NCBI RefSeq assembly: GCF_000222485.1
Contig: NC_015914.1
Span: forward strand, 4,942,001-5,006,000
Length of the DNA: 64,000 bases
Direction of reading: 5' to 3'
Source of the DNA: Cyclobacterium marinum DSM 745
GTDB taxonomy: Bacteria; Bacteroidota; Bacteroidia; Cytophagales; Cyclobacteriaceae
Shown: in pieces, positions 47,119 through 64,000 of the stretch
Layout: every line of letters starts with the position of its first letter
Numbering within the stretch: position 1 is the stretch's first letter
Made by a program: the position numbers and the translations under genes
The notes under the pieces: generated by a model
Seen by the model: the letters and a program-made list of their open reading frames with translations, nothing else
The model's database searches: none
Told to the model about the DNA's origin: nothing

Positions 47119-47247
47119 TTCGACCTTTAAAAGGTTTATGATTTTATAAATTTTGTCATGTAAAATTAAATATAATGTAAAATTAATATTTGACATAAGT
47201 AAAAGTGGGTAGATAAGGATATATACCATATAAACAATTGGTTTTAG

Positions 47248-48282
47248 ATGGATAACTTCACCAAAAAATGGCAAGATTTTCATGAAGGCAAACTTTCGAA
47301 AAAGGAAGTGATTGAATTTTTGAATTTTCTAGAAAGTGACCTTGGTAAAAGTTGCTATCAAAAGCTCTTGAAAGCAACTTGGGCAGAAGAGGAAGAAATA
47401 AAATCAGTAAAAAAAACACAGTTTTCAAAGGCTCCAAGTTCTAAGTCCCACATAGATTTACCTTCCACTAATGATAAGGATTTTTTTAATCGCTTTTATC
47501 CCTCAAAAATTGCTGCATTTAAATCAATTTTCAAATATGCTGCTTGCTTGATGGCATTATTGATGGTTTTTAAGACCATTGATTTCTGGCCCGACCGTTT
47601 GATGCAAGAAAGTAAAGTTGAGCAGGAAATTGTATGGCTTAGTAAATCCAATCCGCAAGGAATTAAATCAAAGATTTTATTACCCGATAGTTCATGGGTG
47701 TACTTAAATTCAGGAAGTGAAATTAAATACCCCGAAAACTTTGCAATTAACCGACAAGTAATTTTAAAAGGAGAAGCATTTTTTGAAGTTTTTAGTGACA
47801 AAGATCATCCTTTTACAGTAGAAGCCTCCCATATTAAAACACAAGTATTAGGTACTTCCTTTAATGTGAATTCCCTATTTCCGGAATCAGTTGAAATCGG
47901 ATTGGCCACAGGGTCATTAAGAATTTTAAATGGCAGTTCTGGTGAAGAATTAATATTATCTCCGGGAGAGGCAAGCAATATACCTACAGGCAAAGAGGAA
48001 ATGATAAAATACAATATAGATCCCAAGAAAATCGCGCCTTGGAAAGAAGGTGTTCTACATTTCAATGATGAAAGTTTTGAAAGAGTAGTGAAAAAATTGG
48101 AGAACTGGTACGGAGTTGAAATTACCATTGAGGGGGATATTCCCAAAGAAAAATGCAATGGAGATTTCCAAAAAAACACGTATCTGACAAATGTCTTAAA
48201 AGTATTGGGGCATGCCTTAAACTTCAATTTTGATATAAACAAGAACCAAGTAACTATAAATACCATGAATATGAATGAATAA
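47248..48282 (+). CDS. FecR-domain anti-sigma factor
   Basis: The 344-residue inner-membrane protein has a cytoplasmic N-terminal part (1-90), one transmembrane helix (about 95-113), a periplasmic FecR domain (about 138-235; LLPDSSWVYLNSGSEIKYP, VILKGEAFFEVFSDKDHPF, VLGTSFNVNS) and a C-terminal DUF4974 domain (about 265-340; FNDESFERVVKKLENWYGVEI). It holds the sigma factor inactive until the STN domain of SusC signals. SusC starts 40 bp downstream. Confidence 0.9.
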   Translation: MDNFTKKWQDFHEGKLSKKEVIEFLNFLESDLGKSCYQKLLKATWAEEEEIKSVKKTQFSKAPSSKSHIDLPSTNDKDFFNRFYPSKIAAFKSIFKYAACLMALLMVFKTIDFWPDRLMQESKVEQEIVWLSKSNPQGIKSKILLPDSSWVYLNSGSEIKYPENFAINRQVILKGEAFFEVFSDKDHPFTVEASHIKTQVLGTSFNVNSLFPESVEIGLATGSLRILNGSSGEELILSPGEASNIPTGKEEMIKYNIDPKKIAPWKEGVLHFNDESFERVVKKLENWYGVEITIEGDIPKEKCNGDFQKNTYLTNVLKVLGHALNFNFDINKNQVTINTMNMNE

Positions 48283-48321: not shown

Positions 48322-51300
48322 ATGAAACATGTTTTATTTAACAAGTTTAATAGCCTAAAGTATAGGATACTTATCGTTGGGTTATTAAGCATAATCACCG
48401 TGCTGCCTACATCAGCTGCAAATACCGCCAAGAGTATTGAAGATGTAAAGATTAGGATGGATTTTCTTGAAGGAAATTTGAAAGATCTTTTAGGAAATAT
48501 AGAAAGTAAGACAGATTATCGTTTTTTCTACACAGATCAGGCAGTAAAAGATTCTGAAGTACTTACCCTAGATAGAAGTAAGGGAACGGTTGCAGACATA
48601 CTGAAGGAACTGGCGCGGCTAAAAAACCTTCATTTCAAGCAGGTTAACAACAATATTAGTGTCAAGTATTTAGGTGAAAATCAAGATCAGAATAAGGTTG
48701 AAATTGTTCTGGAACGGGCTGATATTAATGTTAAGGGTAAGGTAACGGATAAATCCGGTGAACCTATTCCCGGCGCTGCCATATCAGTTATCGGAACCAC
48801 AGTGGGCACCATAACGGATATTGATGGGAATTTTTCATTAACTGTTCCTGAAGATGGAGAATTGATGGTGTCCTATATAGGATTCACCACCCAAAGAATC
48901 CAAATCAATTCGAGGTCTATTATTAATGTGACCCTTGAGGAGAACATCGCCGGCTTGGAAGAAGTAGTGGTAACTGCTTTAGGTATTAAGAGGGAGGCCA
49001 AAAGTTTAGGTTATGCAACCTCTACTGTAGAATCAGAGGAAATGACCATCAACAGAACCCCAAATTTCATCAATTCGCTTCAAGGGAAAGTTGCAGGGGT
49101 AAATATATCTTCCATGGGATCAGGACCTCAGGGTAGTAGTAAAATTAGGATTCGAGGGGTATCTTCTTTTGGAGGAAATAATAGCCCTCTTATTGTGGTT
49201 AATGGTGTTCCAATTGATAACACCAATTTTGGTGTCAGTGGGGATGTTTCTGAGGTGGGAAGTAACAGGAGATCTGATAGTGGAGATGGATTGAGTAGTA
49301 TCAACCCTGATGATATCACATCGATGTCTGTATTGAAAGGTGCTGCGGCTTCTGCATTATATGGGGCAAGGGCTAAGGATGGTGTGATAATGATTACCAC
49401 TCGAAATAGGGCTTCTGGTTCAGGAATTCAAATAGAGCTTAATACCAATTATACCAATGACACGCCCCTTGATTTTACTGATTATCAATATGAATATGGG
49501 CAAGGTGAAGGTGGTTTAAGACCTACTTCAGCCCGACCGGTTTCGGGGGTATGGAGTTTTGGAGAAAAAATTGAGCCCGGAATGACTCAGATATTATTTG
49601 ATGGAATAGAAGTTCCTTATACTGCTCAACCCAATAAGATTAGAGATTACTATAGAAATGGTTCAACCCTGTCTAATACAGTTACTTTATCCTCAGGAGG
49701 AGAAAATGGTGGCTTTAGCTTATCAGTAGCAAATATGGACAGTAAGGCCATCTTACCTGGCTCCAATTACAATCGAAAAACAATTAATTTGGGATTTACC
49801 CAAAACATCAACAAGCTAACTGTTTCCGGGAACATTAATTACTCCAAGGAGGATAGAATCAACCCTCCAAATATAGCAGAACAAGATTTTAGTCCTGTTG
49901 TCATCTATACCTTGGCAAGTACGATGCCCTTAGACCTCTTGGAGCAATATGCATTTGATGAAAATGGGGATGAATTTCCTTACTCAAGGTTTACAAATAG
50001 AACCAATCCCTATTTTGCCCTTTCTAGGTTCGAAAACAATATTAGAGATAGGGTTTACGGAAATATTACTGCTAGGTACGATATTACAGATTGGCTCTAT
50101 GTTCAAGGTAGGTTTGGCCAAGATTTTTATTCCAGAGATTCTGAATACAATTTACCAACAGGTTCTCAAAGACAATCTTCTCCACCTCCAGGTTTTGTTA
50201 ATGGTCAATATGTCCAGGACATCAGAAGATTCAGGGAAGTCAATACAGATTTCTTGTTGGGGATGAACAAATCTTTTGGGGACTTTGGCTTAATGGTTAA
50301 CCTTGGAGGTAATCAAATGTACCGTAAATTAGATGTAAACACCCTATTGGGAGAAAACTTCTATACCAGAGATCTTTATACCATTGGAAATGCAAGTAAA
50401 ATAACTACCAATTACAGCATTTCTGAAAGGCAAGTGAACTCCTTATATGGTAGCACAGAATTATCTTGGAAGGGTTATTTGTATCTAAATGGTACGGTAA
50501 GAAACGATTGGTTCTCTACACTCTCTCCTGCCAATAGAAGTATTGTTTACCCTTCGATCACAGGTAGTTTTGTCTTCTCTCAAGCATTTGAAAACCTGCC
50601 TAATTGGATGACTTTTGGTAAAATTAGAGTGGCTTATGCTGAAGTAGGTAGTGATACCGATGTGCAACCTTATGCCAACAATCTGTTTTACAATATCAAT
50701 CAGCAGCAATTTCCCAATTCTAATGGAGTGGCTCAGCCTGTTGGTAGTGTAAGTGGTTCAGTGGTGCCCAATTCCAATTTGAGACCAATGAGGGTTAGAG
50801 AAAAAGAGATTGGTTTGGAAATGACCTTGTTTGATAATCTTCGTTTTGAAGTTTCTTATTATGATAAACTCTCTTCTGATCAAATATTGCAGGCGCAAAT
50901 TTCTAATGGTTCTGGCTATGTAAATCAGCTCATCAATGTGGGAGAAAGCGAGAACAAAGGAGTGGAAATGTATGCAAATATTTCACCCATAAAAACAGCT
51001 GATTTTGAGTGGAATTTTGGAGCTAACGCTTCCTATAATCAATCCAAAGTTTTAAGTCTTGGTGATGATGTGGATGGGTCTTTTATTACCGTAGGTCTTG
51101 CAGAATTTCATGGTGAATTAAGACAGGAAGTAGGTAAACCAATGGCTCAACTTTACGGTTGGGGATACCTTAGAGATGAACAAGGAAGACAAGTTTTTGA
51201 CCCTAATAGTGGGAGACCATTAAGATCAAATGAGCAATTAAACTTTGGCTCTGCAATTCCGGTGTGGGTTGGAGGTTTTACAAATAGTTTTAACTATAAA

Positions 51301-51783
51301 AAACTTAGTTTCTCCTTCTTAATCGATTTTAAATTGGGCCATAAAATGATTTCAGGTACTCATACCAATGCATATAGGCACGGTTTAGACAAAGCCACAC
51401 TTGTTGGAAGAGAGCAAGGTTATGTTGTTGGGGATGGAGTAAATCCAAATGGAGAAATCAATACAGCTCAAGCCCCTGTACAGACTTATTATGAAACGAT
51501 CCGTTCCGGAAGAATGTCTGAGCAGTCTGTATTCAATGCAGGTTCCTGGCAGTTGCGTCAATTGACCTTGGGTTATGACCTAAGCAGCTTGATTCCACAA
51601 AATAACTTTATCAAAGGGTTAAGATTTAACGTTGTTTCAAACAATGTTGCGGTAATAAAGAAATGGGTACCTCATATCCATCCGGACCAAAATGGCATTA
51701 TCTCAGATAATATGGCAGGTTTGGAAGCTACCGGTTTGCCGGTTACCAGAAGTATTGGTTTTAATCTTAATGTGAAGTTTTAA
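48322..51783 (+). CDS. SusC/RagA-type TonB-dependent outer-membrane transporter with STN domain
   Basis: The 1153-residue outer-membrane protein has a signal peptide (about 1-33), an STN signalling domain (about 45-118), a CarboxypepD_reg domain (136-206; VKGKVTDKSGEPIPGAAISV), a plug (about 213-345; EEVVVTALGIKREAKSLGYA, VNISSMGSGPQGSSKIRIRGVSS) and a 22-strand-type barrel ending in FNLNVKF. The STN domain fits the upstream sigma/FecR pair, implying ligand-induced expression. Substrate import with SusD is inferred; the downstream genes point to sugar acids or their oligomers. Confidence 0.92.
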   Translation: MKHVLFNKFNSLKYRILIVGLLSIITVLPTSAANTAKSIEDVKIRMDFLEGNLKDLLGNIESKTDYRFFYTDQAVKDSEVLTLDRSKGTVADILKELARLKNLHFKQVNNNISVKYLGENQDQNKVEIVLERADINVKGKVTDKSGEPIPGAAISVIGTTVGTITDIDGNFSLTVPEDGELMVSYIGFTTQRIQINSRSIINVTLEENIAGLEEVVVTALGIKREAKSLGYATSTVESEEMTINRTPNFINSLQGKVAGVNISSMGSGPQGSSKIRIRGVSSFGGNNSPLIVVNGVPIDNTNFGVSGDVSEVGSNRRSDSGDGLSSINPDDITSMSVLKGAAASALYGARAKDGVIMITTRNRASGSGIQIELNTNYTNDTPLDFTDYQYEYGQGEGGLRPTSARPVSGVWSFGEKIEPGMTQILFDGIEVPYTAQPNKIRDYYRNGSTLSNTVTLSSGGENGGFSLSVANMDSKAILPGSNYNRKTINLGFTQNINKLTVSGNINYSKEDRINPPNIAEQDFSPVVIYTLASTMPLDLLEQYAFDENGDEFPYSRFTNRTNPYFALSRFENNIRDRVYGNITARYDITDWLYVQGRFGQDFYSRDSEYNLPTGSQRQSSPPPGFVNGQYVQDIRRFREVNTDFLLGMNKSFGDFGLMVNLGGNQMYRKLDVNTLLGENFYTRDLYTIGNASKITTNYSISERQVNSLYGSTELSWKGYLYLNGTVRNDWFSTLSPANRSIVYPSITGSFVFSQAFENLPNWMTFGKIRVAYAEVGSDTDVQPYANNLFYNINQQQFPNSNGVAQPVGSVSGSVVPNSNLRPMRVREKEIGLEMTLFDNLRFEVSYYDKLSSDQILQAQISNGSGYVNQLINVGESENKGVEMYANISPIKTADFEWNFGANASYNQSKVLSLGDDVDGSFITVGLAEFHGELRQEVGKPMAQLYGWGYLRDEQGRQVFDPNSGRPLRSNEQLNFGSAIPVWVGGFTNSFNYKKLSFSFLIDFKLGHKMISGTHTNAYRHGLDKATLVGREQGYVVGDGVNPNGEINTAQAPVQTYYETIRSGRMSEQSVFNAGSWQLRQLTLGYDLSSLIPQNNFIKGLRFNVVSNNVAVIKKWVPHIHPDQNGIISDNMAGLEATGLPVTRSIGFNLNVKF

Positions 51784-51833: not shown

Positions 51834-53366
51834 ATGAAAAAGTCTAAAAAATCATATATATATCCCTTTATTTTACTATTCATTTTGTTTTCCTGTGATT
51901 CAGGGTTTGATGAAATGAATACCAACCCGGTTAGGTTAACTTCAATTGATCCTACCTTTCAATTAAATCAGGCCATTATTACCAGTTCTCCGGGTTACAA
52001 TAATTTGACCTACGAAGTTACGATAGTAAGGCAAATGATAACTCCTTTTCAAGGTGTTGGTACCGGAGGAAATTTAAATCAAGACAATAGAGCAGCTACC
52101 CAAGGCAATTGGTATACCTATTATGAAACCATCATTAAAAATCTGGTTGACGGATTATCAGCACTTGAAGATATGCCTGAAAGAACCAATTTGGAACATA
52201 TCATGAAAATATGGAAGGCGCATGCTTTTATAGTTTTAACAGATACCTATGGTGATATCCCTTATACAGAAGCAGGCAAAGGGTATATTGATGGTGTGGT
52301 TTTTCCTAAATATGATTCTCAGGAAAGTATTTACACCTCCATTTTAAATGACTTGGAGGCAGCTGTTCAAGGGTTGAATGATTCAAATGATGATATAGGT
52401 CAAGAAGTCATGTATAGTGGCAATATTGAACAATGGAAAAGATTAGGGAATTCTTTACTGTTACGTGCCGGAATGCGTTTGTCTAAGGTAGATCCTTCCT
52501 CTGCAGCAGCATATGCAAGCAAAGCAGTGGCTGGAGGTTTGATGCAATCCAATGATGACAATGCAGTAGTAAGGCACAATGCTGATTATAGAAATGGTGT
52601 AGGTACAAACCTGAATGGGGGGCAGGCGCCATTCTACTATCTTGATAAGGAGTTAGTAGATTTCTTTAAAGCCAATGAAGATCCAAGATTGACCTCCATA
52701 GGAGTGAGGTATGTAGGCGCTCTTAGTGGAAACGATCAGGTGGAAGCCAATGCAGTAAGAACTTTTGATGCTCAAATAGGTATGCCACAAGGCTATGACA
52801 ATACCACCATTATCCCTGTGGTGCAGCAGGAAGGACTTGCCAGTTTATTTGATTATAGTCAGTTGGATAGAAGCCGTATGGGAAATCCAGAAGCTCCCAA
52901 TTTTTTGGTTACCTACTCTCAAACATTGCTTCTTTGGGCAGAGGCGGCTTATCGTGGTTGGGCTCCCGGTGACCCGGAAGAATTGTATCATGCCGGTATA
53001 AGGGCACATATGGAGCAAATGGCATTGTGGGAAAATAGCATGGCCATTTCATCAGAAGAGATTGATAGCTATATAGCAGCTCACCCGCTAGAAGTTGGGA
53101 AAGAACTTGAACTTATCAATACCCAATATTGGGTGTCTTCCTTCTTGATAGGCCATGAAGCCTGGTCTAATTTTAGAAGATCCGGTTACCCTATCTTAAC
53201 TCCTAATCCTTATCCGGGTAGTGACCTTAAAGATGAGGACTTTATTAGAAGGCTTACCTATCCTGATTCTGAGTTGACTGTTAACAAGGAGAATATTGAT
53301 GTTGCCACAAGTAGAATGGGACCTGATATATTGGATACAAGAGTTTGGTGGGACGTAAAGCAATAG
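51834..53366 (+). CDS. SusD/RagB-like outer-membrane lipoprotein
   Basis: The 510-residue lipoprotein (lipobox LFSC, Cys21) has the helical SusD-like_2 fold: DEMNTNPVRLTSIDPTFQLNQAI, then TPR-like helices (DILDL-type acidic segments; VLTDTYGDIPYTEAGKG, LLRAGMRLSKVDP) and YSQTLLLWAEAAYRGW. It is the cell-surface binding partner of the SusC directly upstream (50 bp). A 15-bp hairpin follows its stop and separates it from the metabolic genes. Confidence 0.9.
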   Translation: MKKSKKSYIYPFILLFILFSCDSGFDEMNTNPVRLTSIDPTFQLNQAIITSSPGYNNLTYEVTIVRQMITPFQGVGTGGNLNQDNRAATQGNWYTYYETIIKNLVDGLSALEDMPERTNLEHIMKIWKAHAFIVLTDTYGDIPYTEAGKGYIDGVVFPKYDSQESIYTSILNDLEAAVQGLNDSNDDIGQEVMYSGNIEQWKRLGNSLLLRAGMRLSKVDPSSAAAYASKAVAGGLMQSNDDNAVVRHNADYRNGVGTNLNGGQAPFYYLDKELVDFFKANEDPRLTSIGVRYVGALSGNDQVEANAVRTFDAQIGMPQGYDNTTIIPVVQQEGLASLFDYSQLDRSRMGNPEAPNFLVTYSQTLLLWAEAAYRGWAPGDPEELYHAGIRAHMEQMALWENSMAISSEEIDSYIAAHPLEVGKELELINTQYWVSSFLIGHEAWSNFRRSGYPILTPNPYPGSDLKDEDFIRRLTYPDSELTVNKENIDVATSRMGPDILDTRVWWDVKQ

Positions 53367-53399: not shown

Positions 53400-53438
53400 C
53401 CTTGGCTATGTAATGTAGCATTTATTACATAGCCAAGG
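53400..53438 (+). promoter_or_regulatory. Perfect 15-bp hairpin between susD and garL-like genes
   Basis: CCTTGGCTATGTAAT (53400-53414) and ATTACATAGCCAAGG (53424-53438) are exact complements around a 9-nt loop, followed only by a weak CTTTATTG tract. It could be a leaky terminator, an RNase-protection element for the susCD mRNA, or an operator. Confidence 0.7.
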
Positions 53439-53521: not shown

Positions 53522-54295
53522 ATGAAAAATATTAAAAAGAGATTAAAATCCGGGGAAACATTGGCCGGTTGCTGGCTAAACTTAGGTAGTTCTGTAACCG
53601 CAGAAATTGTTGGTTCTTCAGGCTACGACTGGGTACTTATTGATTTAGAACATGGTTCAGGTGAACAAGCTGATCTTTTACACCAACTCCAGGCATTAGA
53701 GCATACACCAGCTTCAGCATTGGTACGCGTAGAGAGTCACAAAAAAGAAAGAATTCATCGGGTACTGGATCTTGGTGCCAATGGCGTAATGGTTCCTCAA
53801 ATAAAAAAAGTAGCAGAAGCCAAGTCAGCTATTGCGGGTATTCATTATCCTCCTAACGGTGTCAGGGGAGTAGCCAAAATGGTCCGGGCCACAGGATTTG
53901 GTAAAAACTTTGATTCTTATAAGAAAGGGACATTGGAAAACCTACTTGGTGTTATTCAAATTGAAACTTTGGAAGCTTTAGAGGTATTGGATGAAATTGC
54001 TGAACTTCCGGGAGTAGATGTGTTATTTATTGGTCCTGCAGACCTTACCATGGCTTTGGGAATAGATGGAGACTTGTCTCACCCTTTATTTGTTGATGCT
54101 GTGGAAAAAATTGTTGCAGCCGCAAGAAAAGCAGGTAAAGCCGTGGGTATTTTGCTTTTCGATCCCAATGATTTTCAAAAATACAATGAATTAGGGATTC
54201 AGCTTATCGCATGTGGTGCTGATGCTACCTTTGTAGCCAATGGAGCAAGGGCGATGGCTAGCCAGCTGAATTCGGCTAAAAATAGGAAAGGGTAA
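53522..54295 (+). CDS. HpaI/HpcH-family aldolase (GarL-like 5-keto-4-deoxy-glucarate aldolase)
   Basis: This class II, metal-dependent aldolase of about 257 residues has the barrel segments WVLIDLEHGSG (catalytic His region), VRVES (substrate-binding Arg), VMVPQIKKVAEAKSAI, LGVIQIETLEAL (metal-ligand Glu) and FIGPADLTMALGI (metal-ligand Asp). In the aldarate pathway GarL splits 5-keto-4-deoxy-D-glucarate into pyruvate and tartronate semialdehyde. With gudD and garR close by this is the likely job; related aldolases act on 2-keto-3-deoxy-rhamnonate or HKHD. The frame opens at 53498, but ATG 53522 gives the normal start. GntP follows by 4 bp. Confidence 0.85.
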   Translation: MKNIKKRLKSGETLAGCWLNLGSSVTAEIVGSSGYDWVLIDLEHGSGEQADLLHQLQALEHTPASALVRVESHKKERIHRVLDLGANGVMVPQIKKVAEAKSAIAGIHYPPNGVRGVAKMVRATGFGKNFDSYKKGTLENLLGVIQIETLEALEVLDEIAELPGVDVLFIGPADLTMALGIDGDLSHPLFVDAVEKIVAAARKAGKAVGILLFDPNDFQKYNELGIQLIACGADATFVANGARAMASQLNSAKNRKG

Positions 54296-55753: not shown

Positions 55754-56914
55754 ATGAAAGATATATTAAAAATTTTACAGAGGAGGAGGTTTATGAAGCT
55801 GTTTGCTTCAGGTACCGCCGGTGCACTTACTACGGCAAGTGTAGCATTAGGGGCCGACAGGTCTACATTGAAACCTACCAACCAAAAGGCTAAAAAGGTT
55901 TTAATGAAAGTAGGTTGCCAGTCCGGCGGAACCTCAGAAGAAAATCTGGCTTTTAAAGCCAGACATGGTGTTTATAACATGGACGGAGGCATGCCAAAAT
56001 TTATTCCGGGAAAAGGCTGGGACTTAGAGGATAGCTTGAGAAAGAGGGATGCTTGTGAGAAATATGGTATCAGTCTTGATGCTTACCATCTTCCCCTTAC
56101 ATCTGCTGGAATTGACCGTGTGGTTGTTCCTAACATCATGCTAGGTAAAGCCCCAGAGAGAGATAAAGAAATTGAGATGATTCAGCAAATGATTCAAGTT
56201 TCAGCCAAAACCGGTGTGAAATTATTGAATTATAATACCACCATTTTGCCTGTATTAAGAACTGGAAGAACGATTGATCCCAATAGAGGAAATGCTTCTT
56301 ACAGTACCTGGAATTATGAAGAAGCTCTAAAAAGGGAGCAACCATTGACCGTAGCGGGGAATGTGGATGCTGATGAAATTTTTGAACGGATAAAATACAT
56401 GCTGGATAGAATAATTCCTGTGGCAGAGGAATACAAGGTGCAGTTAGGTAACCATATTGCCGATCCCCCGGTACCTGATCAATATAAGGGAATAATGCGA
56501 TGGAATAGTCCTGAAGTTTTTGAGGGAATGAAGAGGTTTGCTAAATTGTCGGACAGTCCCTATCATGGATTTAATTTTTGTATTGGGTCTATTGCAGAGG
56601 GGCTCCGAGATCCTAAAAATGATATTTTCCCCATAATCGAATATTTTGGCAAGCAAAAGCAAATATTTAATGTACACCTTAGAAATATTAAAGGCAATTA
56701 TAACAATTTCCAAGAAGTATTTCCGGACAATGGAGAGATGAACTTTTTCCATGTTATGCGTGCATTGCGAGAAGTGGAATTTGATGGGATGGTAATGCCC
56801 GATCATGTCCCGAAACACGATGCAGAGGGGTCGAGTGCTCAAGCTTTTGCCTTCGCTTATGGACATATTATAGGTATTCTTCAGGCTTTAAAGGACGAAG
56901 CTGACAATGGTTGA
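55754..56914 (+). CDS. Tat-type UxuA-like (mannonate dehydratase) TIM-barrel protein
   Basis: The 386-residue product has a twin-arginine leader (QRRRFMKLFASGTAGALTTASVA) and a TIM-barrel related to D-mannonate dehydratase. Visible elements are LGNHIADPPVP (His near 230), FNFCIGS with Cys (about 273-279), VHLRNIKG (His about 308) and MPDHVPKHD (Asp/His near 348), matching the metal-binding pattern of UxuA. UxuA itself is cytoplasmic; export would place a dehydration step in the periplasm. It lies inside the aldarate operon between gntP and garR. The substrate could be mannonate or another aldonate/aldarate. Confidence 0.8.
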   Translation: MKDILKILQRRRFMKLFASGTAGALTTASVALGADRSTLKPTNQKAKKVLMKVGCQSGGTSEENLAFKARHGVYNMDGGMPKFIPGKGWDLEDSLRKRDACEKYGISLDAYHLPLTSAGIDRVVVPNIMLGKAPERDKEIEMIQQMIQVSAKTGVKLLNYNTTILPVLRTGRTIDPNRGNASYSTWNYEEALKREQPLTVAGNVDADEIFERIKYMLDRIIPVAEEYKVQLGNHIADPPVPDQYKGIMRWNSPEVFEGMKRFAKLSDSPYHGFNFCIGSIAEGLRDPKNDIFPIIEYFGKQKQIFNVHLRNIKGNYNNFQEVFPDNGEMNFFHVMRALREVEFDGMVMPDHVPKHDAEGSSAQAFAFAYGHIIGILQALKDEADNG

Positions 56915-56975
56915 TTTACAGATGACTATCAATAAAAATTAATAAGTGACCAATAAAAATAAAAACGCAACTATT

Positions 56976-57851
56976 ATGAAAAAAGTAGGATTTATAGGAT
57001 TAGGAATTATGGGGAAGCCCATGGCCATCAACTTAATTGATGCAGGATATGATTTAATTGTATTAGACAGCAACAAAGCAGCGGATGATTTAACTCAAAA
57101 AGGGGCAAAGGCCTATTCCAGTTGCAAAGAAGTGGCTGAAAATTCAGAGATTATTATCACCATGCTTCCTGATTCTCCTGAAGTAAATGAAGTTGTTTTT
57201 GGAGAAGGAGGGGTATTGGAAGGTATCCAATCAGGTGCTGTTTTTATAGATATGTCTACCATTGCCCCATCCACGGCTAGAGAAGTTGCGGAGGCCATGC
57301 TAAAAAAAGGAGTGGATGCTTTAGATGCTCCTGTTTCAGGTGGGCAAGTTGGTGCAGAACAAGGGAATCTATCAATTATGGTAGGAGGAAAGCAGGCCGC
57401 TTTTGATACTGCCAAGCCTTTATTTGAGGTAATGGGAAAAAGTGCAGTGTTGATTGGTGATGCCGGAGCAGGACAAATGACCAAAGCTTGCAATCAAATG
57501 ATTGTGGGGATGACTATTCAGGCGGTGGCTGAATCTTTTACTTTGGCCAAAAAAGCTGGGGTTGATCTGGAAAAGATGAGAGAAGCATTGTTAGGAGGCT
57601 TTGCTCAGAGTCGAATTCTGGACTTACATGGCCAAAGAATAATTGATCGAAATTTTGAGCCTGGTTTTAAGATCAAATTGCATCGAAAAGACATGAACAT
57701 CGCTTTAATGGCCGGCAAAGAATTTAAAGTGCCTTTGTATGGCTTAGCTCTTGTTGCTAGCCATATGGATGCTGTTTTGGCAGCGGGAATGGATGAAAAA
57801 GACCACAGCGCTTTGGCTCTGCTAATGGAAAAATTATCCAATGTAGACTAA
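56976..57851 (+). CDS. garR: Tartronate semialdehyde (2-hydroxy-3-oxopropionate) reductase-like
   Basis: The NAD(P)-dependent beta-hydroxyacid dehydrogenase of about 291 residues has an N-terminal Rossmann site VGFIGLGIMGKPMAINL, the substrate motif DAPVSGGQVGAEQGNLSIMVGG, and the catalytic helix GAGQMTKACNQMIVGM with the invariant Lys, then KKDMN-type KLHRKDMNIAL. GarR/GlxR reduces tartronate semialdehyde, the GarL product, to D-glycerate. The longer frame opens at 56946, but MKKVGFIG at 56976 is the true-looking start. Confidence 0.86.
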   Translation: MKKVGFIGLGIMGKPMAINLIDAGYDLIVLDSNKAADDLTQKGAKAYSSCKEVAENSEIIITMLPDSPEVNEVVFGEGGVLEGIQSGAVFIDMSTIAPSTAREVAEAMLKKGVDALDAPVSGGQVGAEQGNLSIMVGGKQAAFDTAKPLFEVMGKSAVLIGDAGAGQMTKACNQMIVGMTIQAVAESFTLAKKAGVDLEKMREALLGGFAQSRILDLHGQRIIDRNFEPGFKIKLHRKDMNIALMAGKEFKVPLYGLALVASHMDAVLAAGMDEKDHSALALLMEKLSNVD

Positions 57852-57868
57852 ATCCTAAAGCCCAAATT

Positions 57869-59182
57869 ATGAACAATATTCTTTCAGGTAGGGGGCCGAT
57901 TATTAAAGATATGATTATTACCCCTATTGCTATTAAAGATCCCCCATTACTCAACGCTGCAGGATTACATGCTCCTTATGCTTTGCGAACAATTGTTGAG
58001 TTGGTTACTGAGGATGGAATTGTTGGAATAAGTGAAATTCCCGGAAATGATGCCATCAATGATTCCCTAGCAGAAGCAGCTCAATTAATTATCGGAAAAG
58101 ATGTATACCAACTTAACCATTTGCAAGCCTCAATAAATGCTTATTTCGGTACAGATACGAGTAAGGATCGGGGAGATGCACCTTGGGATCAAAGAAAGCT
58201 AGTACATGTTTTTTCGGCCTTGGAAGTGGCCTGTCTAGATATTATTGGAAAGGTAGTAAACCGCCCAATTGTAGACCTTTTGGGTGGCAAAATGCGTGAT
58301 GCTGTTCCATTTGCGGCTTACCTATTTTATAAATATGAGGGTGCAGGAGGTTCACTTGGTTTTGGTACCGATCACAAGGCCACCGGTTGGGATGCTGCCA
58401 GGCAGAAAGCAGCCATAAACCCTGAGGGAATCGTTGCCCAAGCCCATGCCATGTGTAAACACTATGGGTTCCAATCTATTAAATTAAAAGGTGGGGCCTT
58501 TCCTCCGGACCAGGAAGTAGCTGCCATGTTTGCTTTGCATGAAGCATTCGGCGATAAAATGCCATTGAGGTTTGATCCCAATGCCATATGGAAACCGGAA
58601 ACTGCCTTGAAGTATGGTAAAAAAATGGAACCTATTCTAGAATATTTAGAAGATCCTGTACGTAGCCAAGAAGAAATGGCCAAGTTAAGGAATGCCATTG
58701 AAACCCCTCTTGCTACGAATATGTGTACAACTTCATTTGATGAAATTCCTGCAAGTATTCGCTTGGGAGCTGAAGATATCATATTGAGTGATCACCATTT
58801 TTGGGGAGGCTTAAAAGCTTCTATGGAATTGGCCAAGCTTTGCACCACTTTTGGCAGGAAGCTTTCCATGCATTCCAATAGTCACTTGGGGATATCCTTG
58901 GCTGCCATGGTGCATTTAGGTGCAGCACTTCCGGAAGTCCCCTATGCCTTAGATACCCATTATCCATGGCAATCTGAAGAAGTTATTGTAGGAGGGAGTA
59001 TTCCCTTTGTCAATGGCTCAGTTGAAGTGCCTACAGGAGCCGGACTTGGGGTGGAACTTGATCGACAAGCTTTAGAAAAGCTTCACCAACAGTACCTTCG
59101 ATCAGGGCTGTCCAAAAGGGACGATCAAATTGAAATGCAAAAGGTTCATCCGGATTGGACTTTTCAAAAAGTCCGTTGGTAA
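57869..59182 (+). CDS. gudD: D-glucarate dehydratase (enolase superfamily)
   Basis: The 437-residue enzyme would dehydrate D-glucarate (and L-idarate) to 5-keto-4-deoxy-D-glucarate, the GarL substrate. Family landmarks: GISEIPGNDAINDSL, the catalytic lysine pair SIKLKGG (Lys-x-Lys), the metal-binding LRFDPNAIW and YLEDPVRSQEE, DIILSDHHFWGGLKAS (Asp of the His-Asp dyad) and LSMHSNSHLGIS (catalytic His). Length and the VHPDWTFQKVRW tail are normal for GudD. No signal peptide is present, so it acts in the cytoplasm. It starts 18 bp after garR; a hairpin follows at 59196. Confidence 0.9.
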   Translation: MNNILSGRGPIIKDMIITPIAIKDPPLLNAAGLHAPYALRTIVELVTEDGIVGISEIPGNDAINDSLAEAAQLIIGKDVYQLNHLQASINAYFGTDTSKDRGDAPWDQRKLVHVFSALEVACLDIIGKVVNRPIVDLLGGKMRDAVPFAAYLFYKYEGAGGSLGFGTDHKATGWDAARQKAAINPEGIVAQAHAMCKHYGFQSIKLKGGAFPPDQEVAAMFALHEAFGDKMPLRFDPNAIWKPETALKYGKKMEPILEYLEDPVRSQEEMAKLRNAIETPLATNMCTTSFDEIPASIRLGAEDIILSDHHFWGGLKASMELAKLCTTFGRKLSMHSNSHLGISLAAMVHLGAALPEVPYALDTHYPWQSEEVIVGGSIPFVNGSVEVPTGAGLGVELDRQALEKLHQQYLRSGLSKRDDQIEMQKVHPDWTFQKVRW

Positions 59183-59195
59183 GTTATCATTGAAA

Positions 59196-59221
59196 AACCC
59201 ATCTCACCAAAGAGATGGGTT
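59196..59221 (+). terminator. Hairpin after gudD
   Basis: AACCCATCTC and GAGATGGGTT form a perfect 10-bp stem with a 6-nt loop, followed by AATATTATTGTTTT. It is a probable terminator or partial terminator between the cytoplasmic aldarate genes and the exported enzymes that follow. Confidence 0.65.
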
Positions 59222-59253
59222 AATATTATTGTTTTACTTTAAACCCGGTGTAC

Positions 59254-60195
59254 ATGAGAAAGTGCAGGACAATAGCCCTAGTATTTTTAATTTCTTTTCT
59301 AATCAATTTGCCTGGATTTGGGCAGCAAATTAGTAAAGAAGAGTTGTTATTTCTTACACCAAATTGGACTGGAGAAAGATTTGAAGATGGTCGCCCAAAA
59401 GTTGCCGATGAAATTTTAGATAGAATGAAGGAGGTAACACATGAAGAAGCATGGGCAGTCTTAAAGAATGAAGGGTATAAATACCAATATGCAGAAAACT
59501 GGGAAACCATTCATTCAGATAGGGTTTTGGTTGGAAGGGCTTTGACAGCCACCTTTATGCCCGGGAGACCTGATATTCACGATGCCATTGATAAAAGAGG
59601 AAAGGCTGAAGGGAAAAGAGGCCAAAATAGTTGGCCTGTAGATCTATTAATGCCCCGAGATGTTTACGTGGCAAACCAATTTGGGCTTCATATAGGTGGC
59701 CCAACAATAGGAGATAATGTTGGCAATGCCATTTATGCCAAATCCGGTAATGGAATTGTATATGATGGGGCTGTAAGAGATATCAATGGTTTAAAAGCCA
59801 TTGATGGTTTTGTTTCATTCTTTTCCAGTTATCACCCTTCACATCACAATCAAGCCGGAGACTTGAATACCATGTTAATTGGAATTAATCAACCTACCCA
59901 AATTAGACAGGTAACTGTAATGGCGGGCGACGTAGTTTTAGGTAGGGATGGGGCAGTTACTTTTATACCACCTCATTTGGCAGAAAAGGTAGTGATTACT
60001 TCAGAAGTGGTTCGGCTGAGGGATATGTTTGGGCACAGTAGGCTTAGGGAAGGAGTCTATACTGCAGGACAAATTGATACCCGATGGTCTCCTGAAATTG
60101 AAAAAGATTTTTCACAATGGCTCAATAATCATAAAAATGATTTGCCCATACCCAAAGAACAAATCGAAGAAATATTGAGGGAAAGAACCTGGTAA
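59254..60195 (+). CDS. Sec-exported RraA-family protein (copy 1)
   Basis: The product has about 313 residues: a signal peptide ending LPGFGQ, a short N-terminal block (LTPNWTGERFEDGRPKVADE) and an RraA-like domain. GDNVGNAIYAKSGNGIVYDGAVRDINGL carries the G-D-N...R-D metal/substrate motif of HMG/CHA aldolases and regulators of RNase E. Members of the family without the RNase E role are aldolases or decarboxylases of keto acids. The domain here is exported, so an RNA role is unlikely. ATG 59254 is preferred to the in-frame GTG at 59248. A paralog lies at 63210. Confidence 0.82.
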   Translation: MRKCRTIALVFLISFLINLPGFGQQISKEELLFLTPNWTGERFEDGRPKVADEILDRMKEVTHEEAWAVLKNEGYKYQYAENWETIHSDRVLVGRALTATFMPGRPDIHDAIDKRGKAEGKRGQNSWPVDLLMPRDVYVANQFGLHIGGPTIGDNVGNAIYAKSGNGIVYDGAVRDINGLKAIDGFVSFFSSYHPSHHNQAGDLNTMLIGINQPTQIRQVTVMAGDVVLGRDGAVTFIPPHLAEKVVITSEVVRLRDMFGHSRLREGVYTAGQIDTRWSPEIEKDFSQWLNNHKNDLPIPKEQIEEILRERTW

Positions 60196-60323
60196 TTCTA
60201 AAAGTTTAAATATCTAATTCGTTGAAAAATAGTTTGATATATTATTTCATGTAATAAAAATTGAACGGTATTTAATGAAATTGACCTTATTTCAATAGAT
60301 TGATTTAACCCAAATAACCTATC

Positions 60324-61601
60324 ATGAACAATAATCTAAAAAGAAGATCATTTTTGTCTAAAGCTGCCTTGACAGGAGTGACAGGAGCAGCATTTTTATC
60401 CGGTTACGGATCCTCTCTTTCTGCCGCAGTAGAAAAAATGCCCTCTTATTCCAATCCTTCAGATTTAAAAATTACAGATGTGAAATGTGGCTATGTAAGG
60501 GGAGCTTTATATGTAAAGATTTATACCAACCAAGATATTTTTGGCTGTGGTGAGGCCGTTGATGCCATCCATGGCACCTATCACTTGGTAAAAAGACTCG
60601 GTAGGCAAATCAAAGGAGAAAGTCCACTAAACCCCAACCGGCTTGCTGAGCAGTTAAGAAAGGGGGCATTTTTCGGGGGTGCGCAATCGGGAGTATTTGT
60701 TGCAGTGCTAACGGCCATAGAAACTGCTCTTTGGGACATTACAGGGAAGGTATTTGGTGTTCCGGTTTACCAATTATTAGGAGGTAAGTTCCGAGATAAA
60801 ATCCGGGTGTACTGCGATACAGCATTGTACACATCCAGAAACCCGAGCCCTCAAGATTATGCGCAAGCTGCTAGGGGAGCGGTGGATAGAGGTTATACAG
60901 CGGTTAAGTTTGACGTAGATGATGGGAGAGATCCCAATAAGTATGATCGATTCAATTGGACAGCTAGTCCGGCAGAAATTGACCGGATGTATGCTGCTAT
61001 AGCTGCTGTAAGAGCAGAAGTTGGAAAAGACGTAGATATCTGTGTAGATATGCATGGTCGGTATGATTATATCACAGGGGTAAAAATGGCTCGCATGTAT
61101 GAAGACTTAGACCTAATGTGGCTTGAAGAACCCATTCCTGCTGATAACCCAAAACTCTACCAAAAGCTTACCCAACAAACAAGTACTCCAATTTGTACAG
61201 GAGAAAATGTTTATTTGGCCTATGGCTTTGTCAATCTTTTAAGTGAGGGTGGGGCTGACATTATCATGCCAGACATTCAGAAAGCCGGAGGGCTTGGTGA
61301 GGCACAAAGGATAGCCAATCTTTCCAATTTGTATTATGTTCCTTTTAGTCCACATATGGTTGCTTCATTTTTAGGAGCCATGGCTTCCTGTCATGTTTGT
61401 GCTTCTGTGCCGAATTTTCAAATCATGGAATGGCAAATTTATATGGACACAGATCAGATGTGGCAAGACATCGTGACTTATGATGGAGAAAGAACGGTAG
61501 ACGGTTTTATAAACCTATCAGAAAAACCCGGGATAGGGGTGGAAATTAATGAAGAAGGTATGAAAAAATACGCAGTGAAGGATATTCCTTTTTTTGAATA
61601 A
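60324..61601 (+). CDS. Tat-type enolase-superfamily sugar-acid dehydratase/racemase (copy 1)
   Basis: The 425-residue product has a twin-arginine leader (KRRSFLSKAALTGVTGAAFL) and a mandelate-racemase/muconate-lactonising-type fold: N-terminal capping domain (about 45-160), barrel with AVKFDVDDG (Lys-x-Asp in place of Lys-x-Lys), ICVDMHGRYD (metal Asp), MWLEEPIP (Glu), PICTGENVY (Glu) and SPHMVASF (His). Sugar-acid dehydratases such as galactonate or related enzymes are the nearest functional types I can name. The precise substrate is unknown. The next gene starts 16 bp later. Confidence 0.82.
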   Translation: MNNNLKRRSFLSKAALTGVTGAAFLSGYGSSLSAAVEKMPSYSNPSDLKITDVKCGYVRGALYVKIYTNQDIFGCGEAVDAIHGTYHLVKRLGRQIKGESPLNPNRLAEQLRKGAFFGGAQSGVFVAVLTAIETALWDITGKVFGVPVYQLLGGKFRDKIRVYCDTALYTSRNPSPQDYAQAARGAVDRGYTAVKFDVDDGRDPNKYDRFNWTASPAEIDRMYAAIAAVRAEVGKDVDICVDMHGRYDYITGVKMARMYEDLDLMWLEEPIPADNPKLYQKLTQQTSTPICTGENVYLAYGFVNLLSEGGADIIMPDIQKAGGLGEAQRIANLSNLYYVPFSPHMVASFLGAMASCHVCASVPNFQIMEWQIYMDTDQMWQDIVTYDGERTVDGFINLSEKPGIGVEINEEGMKKYAVKDIPFFE

Positions 61602-61617
61602 TTAAATATTAAATACC

Positions 61618-63105
61618 ATGACAATGAAACCTAAAAACAACCCAAAATTCAAACATCTTTTTGACCTCGCGGAAAAAGTAGGAAAAGATGTTAAAAAGCA
61701 TCAGACTAACAACTTTGTGAAGGAAAATATTCCTGAACGAAGATCATTTCTTCAAAAGGCGGCCCTGGGAGGGCTGGGGTTAGGCGCATTTATGTCAATG
61801 CCTATTGAAGATACTTTAGCTCATTCAATGCAGCATGTCAATAGGAATTCTAATCCATCAGACTTAAGGATTACAGATTTAAGGATTGCAGAAGTGGCCA
61901 ATGCACCAATGAGATGTCCTATCATCAGAATCGATACCAATCAGGGGATTTATGGTTTGGGCGAAGTTAGAGATGGGGCGAGTGCGAGATATGCTCTTGT
62001 TTTGAAAAGTAGAATTCTTGGAGAGAATCCATGCCAAGTAGAACGATTATTTAAAAAAATTAAACTTTTTGGAAACCATGCCAGACAAGCCGGAGGTGTT
62101 TGTGGCATAGAAATGGCCTTATGGGATTTGGCAGGTAAAGCTTATAATGTACCTATCTATCAAATGTTGGGTGGAAAATATCGAGATTCTATTCGGCTAT
62201 ATTCCGATACTACCAAGTCCAATGATCCTGAAGTATTTGCAGATAGGTTGAAAGCCCGCAAAGACAAAGGCTATACCTTTCTTAAAATGGATTTTGGTGT
62301 GGAGATGGTAAAAGACAATGAGGGATCTGTTGTCAATACCAGGGCCTTTGAAAAAGGCAAATCTTGGGATTCAGAATATGGAAGCTATGGTAGAACCGGA
62401 CACCCTTTTACAGGAGTTCAAATAACAGATAAAGGGATTGCTGAAATGGTCGAATATGTTGCGGCAGTTAGAAATAAGGTTGGCTATGATATCCCCTTAG
62501 CAGCAGATCATTTTGGTCATTTTGATTATAAGGAATGTATCAGGTTGGGAGAGGCATTGGAGCCATATCGTTTGGCTTGGCTTGAAGACATGGTACCTTG
62601 GTTTTATACTGAAAAATGGAAACAGATAACGGATGCCATTAAAACGCCAACTTTGACAGGGGAAGATATTTTTCTTAAAGAAGAGTTTATTAAGTTGATT
62701 GATGCACGAGCCATAGATATGATCCAACCTGATTTGGCCTCTTCCGGAGGAATTTTGGAAACCAAAAAAATTGGAGATTATGCAGAAGAAAAAGGAATTC
62801 CGATGGCCATGCATTTTGCCGGAACTCCCGTTTCCTTTATGGCCAATATTCATTGTGCAGCAGCCACTGAAAACTTCATTTCTCTGGAACACCATTCTGT
62901 AGATATTCCATGGTGGGAGGATCTGGTGAAAGATATACCCAAACCACTCGTCACAGATGGCTTTGCTAAAGTGCCGGAAGGTCCCGGTTTGGGAATTGAC
63001 TTAAATGAGGATGTGATAAAAGAGCACTTACAGGATGGTACTGAGTACTTTGCACCTACAGAAGAATGGAATACTGATCGTTCAAATGACAGGTGGTGGA
63101 GTTAA
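61618..63105 (+). CDS. Tat-type enolase-superfamily sugar-acid dehydratase/racemase (copy 2)
   Basis: The 495-residue protein is related to the preceding one but with an N-terminal extension of about 40 residues before the twin-arginine segment (ERRSFLQKAALGGLGLGAFMSM). The barrel shows TFLKMDFG (Lys-x-Asp), PLAADHFGHFD (metal Asp), LAWLEDMVPW (Glu), LTGEDIF (Glu) and MHFAGTPVSF (His). The long N-terminal tail is unusual for a Tat substrate; Met at 61624 or a later start is possible. It forms an operon-like pair with the previous gene and is followed by a second RraA-like gene. Confidence 0.8.
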   Translation: MTMKPKNNPKFKHLFDLAEKVGKDVKKHQTNNFVKENIPERRSFLQKAALGGLGLGAFMSMPIEDTLAHSMQHVNRNSNPSDLRITDLRIAEVANAPMRCPIIRIDTNQGIYGLGEVRDGASARYALVLKSRILGENPCQVERLFKKIKLFGNHARQAGGVCGIEMALWDLAGKAYNVPIYQMLGGKYRDSIRLYSDTTKSNDPEVFADRLKARKDKGYTFLKMDFGVEMVKDNEGSVVNTRAFEKGKSWDSEYGSYGRTGHPFTGVQITDKGIAEMVEYVAAVRNKVGYDIPLAADHFGHFDYKECIRLGEALEPYRLAWLEDMVPWFYTEKWKQITDAIKTPTLTGEDIFLKEEFIKLIDARAIDMIQPDLASSGGILETKKIGDYAEEKGIPMAMHFAGTPVSFMANIHCAAATENFISLEHHSVDIPWWEDLVKDIPKPLVTDGFAKVPEGPGLGIDLNEDVIKEHLQDGTEYFAPTEEWNTDRSNDRWWS

Positions 63106-63209
63106 TAAAACCCTATACTAAATTGATGGTAATTAATTTAGATGAAAGGGAGGTTGTTTTATTACATACTTTTAAGGAAATTCACGTTTAATTAGTAAAA
63201 AAATAGAAA

Positions 63210-64000
63210 ATGATGAAGAAGATTTTGCTTGTATGCTTGGTATGCTTGTCTGCATTTAATTTGGAAAGTTTTTCCCAGCAGATTTCACCTAGTCCGGAAC
63301 AAATAATCGCACTTACTGCTGAGTGGAAAGGGGAAAGATTCCCTGATGGTAGACCTAAAGTTTCTGATGAGCACTTGGAACGGTTAAAGGCCATTTCTGT
63401 GGAAGAAGCCTGGGGTATATTGAGAAACAAAGGCTATAACAATCAGTTTGAAAATGACTGGGTTATTTTAGACGATAATGAAGTGATGACGGGTAGGGCT
63501 GTTACTGCCCAATATATGCCGTTTAGAGAAGATGTTGACAATCTAGTAAAAAAGATTGGAAAAGAGGAAGGCCGTGCTCAGTCCGGAGGAACCAATTCCT
63601 GGCCAATCGATGGTTTGGTAGAAGGAGATGTATATATCGCGGATAGTTATGGTAAGATTGCCAACGGTACTTTGATCGGTGATAATCTTGGTACTGCCAT
63701 TTACTCTAACTCCAAAAGAGGTGTTATTTTCAATGGTTCTGTAAGAGATATGGATGGATTATCTAAAATAGAAGGATTTAATCTTTGGATCAAAGGTCAT
63801 GATCCTTCTTATATTCAAGATATGATGCTTACTACTATAAATTATCCGATAAGGATTGGTAGGGCCACTGTATTACCTGGAGATGCTGTGTTGGCTAATA
63901 AATGGGGTGTGGTTTTTATCCCTGCTCATTTGGTGCCTGAGTTGGTAATCAATGCCGAATTTACCGCTCTTAGAGATCAATTTGGTCACATGCGATTGAA
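63210..64000 (+). CDS. Sec-exported RraA-family protein (copy 2, cut by the right edge)
   Basis: The frame starts at ATG 63210 and remains open to the end of the window (about 263 codons seen). A signal peptide (MMKKILLVCLVCLSAF, cleavage near FSQQ) is followed by LTAEWKGERFPDGRPKVSDE, SVEEAWGILRNKGY and the RraA domain with GDNLGTAIYSNSKRGVIFNGSVRDMDG. It is clearly a paralog of the 59254-60195 protein; both share the W-GER-DGRPKV block. The expected C-terminal end is missing only because of the window boundary. Confidence 0.85.
   Translation, partial: MMKKILLVCLVCLSAFNLESFSQQISPSPEQIIALTAEWKGERFPDGRPKVSDEHLERLKAISVEEAWGILRNKGYNNQFENDWVILDDNEVMTGRAVTAQYMPFREDVDNLVKKIGKEEGRAQSGGTNSWPIDGLVEGDVYIADSYGKIANGTLIGDNLGTAIYSNSKRGVIFNGSVRDMDGLSKIEGFNLWIKGHDPSYIQDMMLTTINYPIRIGRATVLPGDAVLANKWGVVFIPAHLVPELVINAEFTALRDQFGHMRL

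Follow-up and report, generated by a model that had tools for sequence, protein, structure and literature searches.

A 64-kb window of the genome of Cyclobacterium marinum (6.22 Mb, one contig), which is the whole stretch of DNA that we analysed, contains a run of forward-strand genes from 46.4 kb onwards. These encode, in order, a sigma factor, FecR, SusC, SusD, HpcH, GntP, a UxuA-like enzyme, GarR, a GudD-like enzyme, and two RraA-like and two enolase-superfamily proteins arranged as RraA1, Enol1, Enol2 and RraA2. With modest confidence, we favour the reading that this run is a sugar-acid utilization operon joining two modules, and that its catabolic steps run partly in the periplasm. The last nine genes of the operon were assigned to families with Pfam and NCBIfam profiles; sigma, FecR, SusC and SusD were named by sequence, without a family search. 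The five genes for putatively exported enzymes lie where a first-pass annotation of this DNA had placed them, with HpcH (53522) and GntP (54300) just outside the region it had covered. The features are as follows.

46438..48282, + strand: extracytoplasmic function (ECF) sigma factor with a FecR-type anti-sigma gene, which presumably regulate the SusCD operon; the order sigma-FecR-SusC-SusD is found in relatives
48322..51783, + strand: SusC-type TonB-dependent outer-membrane transporter, named from sequence
51834..53366, + strand: SusD-type lipoprotein, named from sequence
53400..53438, + strand: hairpin, 16-bp stem, located after SusD and before the enzyme genes (hairpin scan)
53522..54295, + strand: HpcH/HpaI-family aldolase (GarL-like), no leader, presumed cytoplasmic; PF03328, 144.3 bits
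54300..55733, + strand: GntP-family permease of the UxuA/GudD module; PF02447, 287.3 bits, cut-off 22.5
55754..56914, + strand: UxuA-like TIM-barrel enzyme with a twin-arginine translocation (Tat) leader; PF03786, 135.9 bits, cut-off 23.7
56976..57851, + strand: GarR-type tartronate semialdehyde reductase, leaderless and presumed cytoplasmic; TIGR01505, 363.9 bits, over the cut-off of 340.75
57869..59182, + strand: GudD-like enolase-superfamily dehydratase, no leader, presumed cytoplasmic; MR_MLE domains
59196..59221, + strand: hairpin, 10-bp stem, at the boundary between the two joined operons (hairpin scan)
59254..60195, + strand: RraA1, predicted exported RraA-like protein with a Sec leader, cognate to Enol1; PF03737, 45.7 bits, cut-off 24.5
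60324..61601, + strand: Enol1, predicted Tat-exported enolase-superfamily dehydratase with a galactonate/gluconate-dehydratase-type site; PF13378 and PF02746
61618..63105, + strand: Enol2, predicted Tat-exported enolase-superfamily protein with a 40-residue pre-leader and a different active site; PF13378 and PF02746
63210..64000, + strand: RraA2, predicted exported RraA-like protein with a Sec leader, cognate to Enol2-type enolases; PF03737, 61.3 bits, same cut-off

Reading of the leaders assigns a twin-arginine (RR) motif with a hydrophobic tail to the UxuA-like protein, Enol1 and Enol2, and Sec-type leaders to RraA1 and RraA2. The N-terminus of the UxuA-like protein is MKDILKILQRRRFMKLFASGTAGALTTASVALGA and that of Enol1 is MNNNLKRRSFLSKAALTGVTGAAFLSGYG; in Enol2, ERRSFLQKAALGGLGLGAFM is preceded by about 40 residues. 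The leaders of both RraA proteins are short and hydrophobic and are followed by Q-Q-I-S. Under the same rule, GarR, GudD and HpcH have no leader, nor does another RraA-like protein, the third in this genome (241 aa, L001:1462-2187, genome position 2.91 Mb). The genome encodes one TatC, and the three proteins therefore show both marks by which we recognise a Tat substrate, namely a twin-arginine motif with a hydrophobic tail and a TatC in the same genome. The Tat-leader model TIGR01409 scores 15.5 and 16.3 bits against the two enolases, narrowly below its cut-off of 16.7, and matches 17 of the 30 proteins of alignment A3 (window proteins included) at E ≤ 0.1; the UxuA-like protein was not among the matches of this search. 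The conservation of the leaders in relatives is stronger evidence of export than these scores.

Relatives were drawn from three sets: 60 loci of the window's own family and 20 loci from across the phylum, both chosen by hand among listed places, and the best 80 of 363 confirmed relatives in a public genome collection (the named loci). The gene caller missed the RraA found by tblastn in one named locus (L198, Latescibacterota), and 79 named loci were counted; those nearest to the window are from Cyclobacterium (L123, L176, L197). Locus L110 was excluded from alignment A2. RraA relatives occur in 48 of 118 family genomes and, in a shallow first look that scored 7 candidates per listed genome, in 18 of 296 phylum-wide genomes; UxuA-like relatives occur in 29 of the 118 family genomes, 18 at an identity of at least 60% (all counts include the window's own genome). 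Judged by these loci, the system is widespread in Bacteroidota and made of cognate partners.

The RR motif is present in all relatives of Enol1 (41/41) and Enol2 (39/39) in the 60 family loci. Combined with the hydrophobic tail, it selects 80 of 80 enolase relatives, as against 28 of the 474 other proteins of the same loci, and the sequence flanking the conserved motif is variable. A Tat leader is likewise found in 89 of the 90 enolases of the named loci, a count that omits enolases below 45% identity and six non-Bacteroidota loci; the sole miss is a 302-residue fragment. All 18 UxuA-like relatives (17 orthologs and one 34%-identical paralog from the window's own genome) have the RR motif, and in 13 of the 17 orthologs it is followed by a lipobox cysteine, which suggests that these proteins are Tat lipoproteins in many cases. 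Further enolase-superfamily proteins of the C. marinum genome have RR-type leaders (L212, L214, L216, L217, L218, L221), and the one at L216 is 57% identical to Enol2.

For the RraA proteins the evidence is of another kind. None of the 79 relatives in family loci matches the RR motif, and all 79 have a hydrophobic stretch near the start. A Sec rule passes 75 of them but also 263 of the 474 background proteins, and was dropped as evidence for export because it does not discriminate; the Sec assignment is made because the leaders can be read directly and because homologs outside Bacteroidota begin straight at the domain. A Sec rule also passes 100 of the 108 RraA genes of the named loci. The eight misses comprise two that look leader-like on reading, one truncated protein and five non-Bacteroidota proteins that start at the domain. 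These five leaderless relatives (L190, L199-L202), from Poribacteria, Chloroflexota, Gemmatimonadota and Spirochaetes, form one clade with support 1.0. The leaderless RraA gene of L201 lies next to that of an enolase, and the one of L199 next to a UxuA-like gene, both neighbours also lacking a leader; the other three have neither kind of gene as next neighbour. From the two linked cases, few as they are, RraA pairing looks like a feature of both compartments, with export as a coordinated trait. The first-pass annotation had named cytoplasmic, unlinked homologs as evidence that would count against its reading. Among close relatives such homologs exist in part, as these five leaderless proteins of which three are unlinked, and in the loci fetched they are confined to genomes outside Bacteroidota.

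We regard export of the enzymes as very likely from these leaders, and the mature enzymes are presumably located in the periplasm. That the operon encodes an ordinary cytoplasmic aldarate pathway with mispredicted leaders is hardly credible, and is already contradicted by the sequences. The families related to the exported enzymes are cytoplasmic elsewhere, and leaderless RraA homologs do occur in Chloroflexota, Spirochaetes and others. Misprediction would nevertheless have to account for a Tat motif in every enolase relative amid variable flanks, for the lipobox in most UxuA-like orthologs, and for the absence of leaders from GudD and GarR of the same operon. The first-pass prediction of three Tat-dependent and two Sec-dependent proteins beside leaderless GarR, GudD and HpcH thus holds, with the leaders conserved in relatives.

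The active sites are consistent with working enzymes. In both enolases the two MR_MLE domains (PF13378 and PF02746) exceed the Pfam gathering score. Enol1 residues K195, D197, D242, H244, E268 and E294 are conserved in 42 of 42 rows, and D317 and H344 in 41, the other row having a gap. Among the 40 rows of Enol2, D297, E323, E349, D372 and H399 are invariant, and H298 and H301 are present in 39. Both proteins contain the three acidic metal ligands and the Asp-His dyad of MR_MLE dehydratases, roles that we assign to these positions on the assumption that they follow other work on the enolase superfamily. They differ at the end of beta-strand 3: Enol1 has H244 in 42 of 42 rows, which we take to be the general acid of GalD-type dehydratases, and Enol2 has F, Y, W, L or V there in its 40 rows, not His. 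The best solved-structure match of Enol1 is 2qq6. In the UxuA-like protein H234, C276, H308, D350 and H351, presumably the UxuA metal-site residues, are invariant across 18 rows. GarR alone passes its specific model: PRK14017 (galactonate dehydratase equivalog) gives 237.5 bits for Enol1 and 204.7 for Enol2 against a cut-off of 311, the mannonate dehydratase NCBIfam models give 100 against 191 and 69.9 against 199.55 for the UxuA-like protein, TIGR03247 gives 331.5 against 828.7 for the GudD-like protein, and the HpaI/GarL models score under their cut-offs for the HpcH aldolase.

In the RraA alignment G153, R175 and D226 are conserved in 81 of 81 rows and D176 in 80. The metal motif of RraA1 is D154-x20-R175-D176. 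D154 occurs together with G179 in 71 rows and S or A at 154 together with E179 in 8, and two rows differ; among the 108 RraA proteins of the named set the pairs are D/G in 99, S or A with E in 5 and S with G in 4, so that the exchange is not strict. The replacement of D154 by S or A in the presence of E179 looks like a swap of one metal ligand for another with metal binding kept. Two metal motifs of this kind exist in the RraA-like family (PMC5065237). As far as alignments can tell, the catalytic residues are conserved and the enzymes are intact.

The operon of the window combines two modules that relatives keep apart: SusCD-HpcH-GntP-UxuA-GarR-GudD on the one hand, RraA1-Enol1-Enol2-RraA2 on the other. 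Around the UxuA-like gene, the order SusC-SusD-HpcH-GntP-UxuA-GarR-GudD is found in six loci (L105-L110); nine others (L111, L114-L121) have abbreviated or variant versions, and in two (L112, L113) none of those partners is present. The order sigma-FecR-SusC-SusD-RraA1-Enol1-(Enol2)-RraA2-Enol2 is found in many relatives' loci, with shorter forms elsewhere, and the two operons of relatives often each have their own SusCD. The idea that the five exported proteins make up one conserved five-gene system, with the co-occurrence of all five families that the first-pass annotation had anticipated, was therefore rejected in favour of two separable operons. In a genome of the same genus (G067) the two operons are adjacent, with a separate sigma/FecR/SusCD block between GudD and RraA1 (L105, L027). 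This block is absent from the window and from three Cyclobacterium genomes, in which the modules are joined, and we infer a loss of the block rather than its original absence. The SusC of the window is 62-71% identical to SusC of UxuA operons, as against 51-62% to SusC of RraA1/Enol1/RraA2/Enol2 loci, and by this measure is closer to the former. The UxuA/GudD operons of two relatives encode RR-leader Amidohydro_2 proteins (L116:10229-11146, L114:7612-8538), possible sugar-acid lactonases.

The RraA and enolase genes form cognate pairs. With labels given by the best hit at an identity of at least 45%, Enol1 comes immediately after RraA1 in 78 cases and Enol2 immediately after RraA2 in 38; cross-pairs are absent (59 family and 73 named loci; six named loci that overlapped or possibly overlapped family loci were dropped before this count, and other overlap may remain). 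Enol1 with RraA1 is the only pair in 13 family loci and 24 named loci, and Enol2 with RraA2 in 7 family loci; RraA stands alone in 18 of the 59 family and 23 of the 73 named loci, some of which are of an ammonia-lyase type described below. The 20 loci from across the phylum (17 genomes) were drawn separately; in 14 of them a Tat enolase comes directly after RraA, 3 have a DgaE/RidA/amidohydrolase context, and 3 have neither. Three of those 14 (L226, L233, L237) also have Tat-leader UxuA relatives, 27-34% identical, near the pair. The first-pass annotation had seen a duplicated module in the RraA/enolase/enolase/RraA arrangement. A recent tandem duplication was rejected: RraA1 and RraA2 are about 45% identical, Enol1 and Enol2 33%, the partners are cognate, and Enol2 lacks the beta-3 His. 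From these sequences RraA1-Enol1 and RraA2-Enol2 are best described as two old cognate pairs.

We consider aldol cleavage the first candidate for the reaction of the exported RraA proteins. The family profile matches the solved chains of HMG/CHA pyruvate aldolase (3noj, 9.6e-12) and 5x15 (4.7e-23), which we take to be a Streptomyces RraA. The HMG/CHA class II pyruvate aldolase is a cytoplasmic enzyme; it serves aromatic catabolism and acts on a different substrate, but shares with the exported RraA proteins the sequence family and the catalytic Arg-Asp pair, R175-D176 being aligned with the RD (R123, D124) of 3noj. In 3noj R123 is catalytic and D124 binds metal, and aldol cleavage is established for the RraA-like family (PMC5065237). 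We rank second the reaction of FlDet, an RraA-like protein of Flavobacterium sp. UMI-01 that acts as a 2-keto-3-deoxy-D-glucarate dehydratase/decarboxylase (PMC8563752). RraA would then dehydrate or decarboxylate the enolase product to a compound of the alpha-ketoglutarate-semialdehyde type, to be imported and oxidized by a cytoplasmic KGSADH in a Weimberg-like rather than a Dahms- or Entner-Doudoroff-like route. We hold this to be unlikely, though not remote. In its favour, FlDet is a Bacteroidota protein acting on a 2-keto-3-deoxy sugar acid, and KGSADH-like and FAH genes lie near RraA-Enol1 in several named loci, for example L136, L149, L156 and L161. FlDet differs, however, from the exported clade. 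It has 237 residues and a native N-terminus that begins at the initiator Met, hence no leader is cleaved, and its gene adjoins an alginate lyase gene (PMC8563752), not an enolase gene. At the N-terminus the exported clade contains an additional segment, W-x-G-x-R..DGRP, which is absent from the leaderless RraA of the C. marinum genome (L001); the published FlDet N-terminus resembles that third RraA, and FlDet is therefore probably not a direct model for the exported clade. In addition, no relative of the KGSADH reference lies within five genes of RraA in the DgaE loci of Flavobacteriaceae, where a keto acid of the hexonate type is the likely product of DgaE.

These DgaE loci provide a second setting for exported RraA. 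In 12 of the 108 RraA genes of the named loci, mostly from Flavobacteriaceae (L178-L182, L185, L187-L189, L193-L195), the enolase is exchanged for a Tat-leader DgaE-family ammonia-lyase and/or a Tat-leader RidA, with the Tat motif in 12 of 12 DgaE and RR in 12 of 12 RidA proteins. The typical gene order in Flavobacteriaceae is GSDH-cytochrome c, amidohydrolase, SBF, RraA, RidA (Tat) and DgaE-family ammonia-lyase (Tat). A second exported Rid protein is found nearby, and in one locus a Tat-leader PIG-L deacetylase; in five loci of the window's own family, RraA likewise stands beside DgaE, RidA and amidohydrolase genes. At 2.31 Mb the C. marinum genome itself encodes a Tat-leader RidA with two SBF genes (L223:8446-11121), with no DgaE or RraA within the 18 kb fetched. 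DgaE converts D-glucosaminate-6-phosphate into a 2-keto-3-deoxy product (PMC9529869), and in the cytoplasmic D-glucosaminate system the aldolase DgaF acts downstream of it (PMC7396535). The Flavobacteriaceae loci resemble that system in coupling a DgaE-family enzyme to presumed cleavage of a 2-keto-3-deoxy product, and differ in the Tat export of DgaE and RidA, in the absence of a recognised kinase from the loci read, and in the exported RraA, which is taken to occupy, by analogy, the slot of DgaF. Among the neighbours searched in the four swap loci read (L178, L181, L185, L188), no other aldolase was recognised. It is likely, from their gene content, that the swap loci encode a periplasmic amino-sugar-acid pathway. 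Since the enolase and DgaE partners should both yield 2-keto-3-deoxy sugar acids, RraA most likely cleaves these in the periplasm; the common denominator of the two settings is a 2-keto-3-deoxy sugar acid, formed by dehydration or deamination, together with RraA.

The first-pass annotation had let the products enter the cell through GntP. As a general transporter for RraA and enolase products this permease was rejected, because it belongs to the UxuA/GudD operon and the transporter most often encoded beside RraA-enolase pairs belongs to the SBF/BASS family, with an SBF gene in 26 of the 60 family loci and 39 of the 80 named ones. Some RraA-Enol1 loci also adjoin genes for pyrroloquinoline quinone (PQQ) dehydrogenase, SGL gluconolactonase, FAH, KGSADH-like and FGGY kinase proteins; the PQQ dehydrogenase, GSDH, SGL, FAH and KGSADH-like neighbours seen in some loci would supply or use sugar acids. 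These neighbours bear on two alternatives. One is that the exported proteins have a different function in the envelope, for instance the removal of toxic lactones or keto acids made by periplasmic dehydrogenases, and are not part of carbon catabolism. The GSDH and PQQ dehydrogenase genes of some loci and the putative nature of every substrate speak for it; we give it little credence given the intact catalytic sites and the SusCD, sigma/FecR and symporter genes of many of the same operons, which are genes of nutrient uptake. The other, which is improbable though less so, is that the enzymes act on attached sugar acids (aldobionic acids, oxidized ends of oligosaccharides, glycosides), whose beta-elimination or aldol cleavage frees the remainder, the substrate being unable to cross the inner membrane. 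It would explain the linkage to SusCD, and two loci have suitable company: in L044 two GH43 proteins and a putative esterase follow RraA1-Enol1, and in L043 there is a DUF1080 3-keto-disaccharide hydrolase with a PQQ-dehydrogenase relative, as in a known periplasmic oxidative route (PMC9007349). Set against this, no glycosidase family was found among the window operon genes searched, and in the named loci relatives of the FGGY kinase, FAH and KGSADH references are commoner near RraA than those of the GH43 reference, a comparison that used one reference each and no systematic glycosidase or lyase search.

Periplasmic catabolism in the window could proceed as follows. SusCD would carry sugar acids, or sugars that are oxidized to acids, across the outer membrane, and the folded, metal-loaded enzymes would reach the periplasm through Tat. 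Enol1 would convert a gluconate- or galactonate-type aldonate into a 2-keto-3-deoxy acid, which the Sec-exported RraA1 would split into pyruvate and an aldehyde, most likely by metal-dependent retro-aldol cleavage. Enol2 and RraA2 would carry out a similar two-step conversion of a different sugar acid, and the UxuA-like enzyme would handle one further sugar acid. The small products would be imported, uptake being the presumed direction of transport. Many relatives probably use the SBF/BASS symporter encoded next to the pair for this; in the window the task must fall to GntP or a permease encoded elsewhere. In a parallel cytoplasmic branch aldarates would enter through GntP, and GudD, HpcH aldolase and GarR would turn them into glycerate; a glycerate kinase is encoded elsewhere in the genome. 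The earlier idea of periplasmic sugar-acid dehydration, perhaps with carbon-carbon cleavage, is thus supported, with substrates and RraA chemistry that we infer from the sequences.

In its widest form the reading is of a complete non-phosphorylative sugar-acid pathway in the Bacteroidota periplasm, to which we give somewhat less than an even chance. Dehydrogenases and lactonases would produce aldonates or amino-aldonates; these would become 2-keto-3-deoxy acids through the action of Tat-exported dehydratases or, among Flavobacteriaceae, of a pyridoxal phosphate (PLP)-dependent ammonia-lyase that is exported by Tat and helped by exported Rid proteins; a Sec-exported RraA aldolase, with its own cognate form for each dehydratase lineage, would release pyruvate and an aldehyde; and SBF/BASS would import the keto acid. 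Several observations weigh against the favoured reading of the operon as partly periplasmic. The operon of the window has no SBF gene. Some loci encode FAH and KGSADH-like enzymes, which suggests that in these cases the 2-keto-3-deoxy acid is taken up unchanged and its breakdown completed in the cytoplasm, with no obvious role for RraA. RraA2 stands alone in 14 of the 59 family loci, and 15 of the 108 RraA genes of the named loci have neither partner as a same-strand neighbour. Many of the counted loci are related, so that they cannot be read as separate, independent events. A laxer Tat rule accepts one relative of RraA1 (L051) and, by its marks, also two relatives of RraA2 (L158, L231). The galactonate, gluconate, glucarate and mannonate dehydratase equivalogs and the RraA subfamily models all score below their cut-offs. 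Of five keto acids tried with FlDet, 2-keto-3-deoxyglucarate was the only one used, and 2-keto-3-deoxygluconate was not (PMC8563752); the dehydratase/decarboxylase activity of this enzyme means that aldol cleavage is not the sole RraA chemistry. No assay of the exported RraA clade was found in the open-access literature searched.

The remaining features of the window concern expression and the operon boundary. Promoter-like sites are at background level in a scan of the window (64 against 58.5), and terminator-like sites number 19 against 16.4, two hairpins being singled out from them. The one at 53400..53438 may act as an attenuator and reduce expression of the genes that follow it. The RraA2 gene crosses the window end, with its stop about 145 bases beyond, and is followed by opposite-strand genes that resemble signalling proteins.

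Sugar-acid dehydration and carbon-carbon cleavage are textbook cytoplasmic steps, and the non-phosphorylative Entner-Doudoroff, Dahms and Weimberg pathways are cytoplasmic. These pathways likewise dehydrate an aldonate with an enolase-superfamily or other dehydratase before handling the 2-keto-3-deoxy acid; unlike them, the present system has export leaders on the dehydratase and its partner, and an RraA-like protein in place of the usual KDG/KDP aldolase. The glucarate/galactarate pathway of Escherichia coli runs through GudD, GarL, GarR and GarK, and the cytoplasmic half of the window (HpcH, GntP, GarR, GudD) resembles it; the window adds a Tat-exported UxuA-like enzyme and SusCD, and its GudD and aldolase fall below the equivalog cut-offs. 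A parallel in compartment is the 3-keto-glycoside route of LacABC and DUF1080, also from Bacteroidetes, for which sugar catabolic chemistry in the periplasm has been proposed; it proceeds by C3 oxidation and hydrolysis, with no sugar-acid dehydration and with different enzyme families (PMC9007349). No description of exported enolase/RraA pairs was found in the open-access full texts searched, subscription journals being mostly outside that search. The pairs suggest an undescribed breakdown of sugar acids in the cell envelope before uptake. If this is true, many soil and marine Bacteroidota would gain pyruvate-type products from sugar acids without kinases, through uptake by a keto-acid symporter. 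A job would also be assigned to the exported RraA-like proteins, whose family names are those of RNase regulators and methyltransferases, and to a family of SBF transporters, and a PLP-dependent ammonia-lyase with imine-handling Rid proteins would be placed in the periplasm of Flavobacteriaceae.

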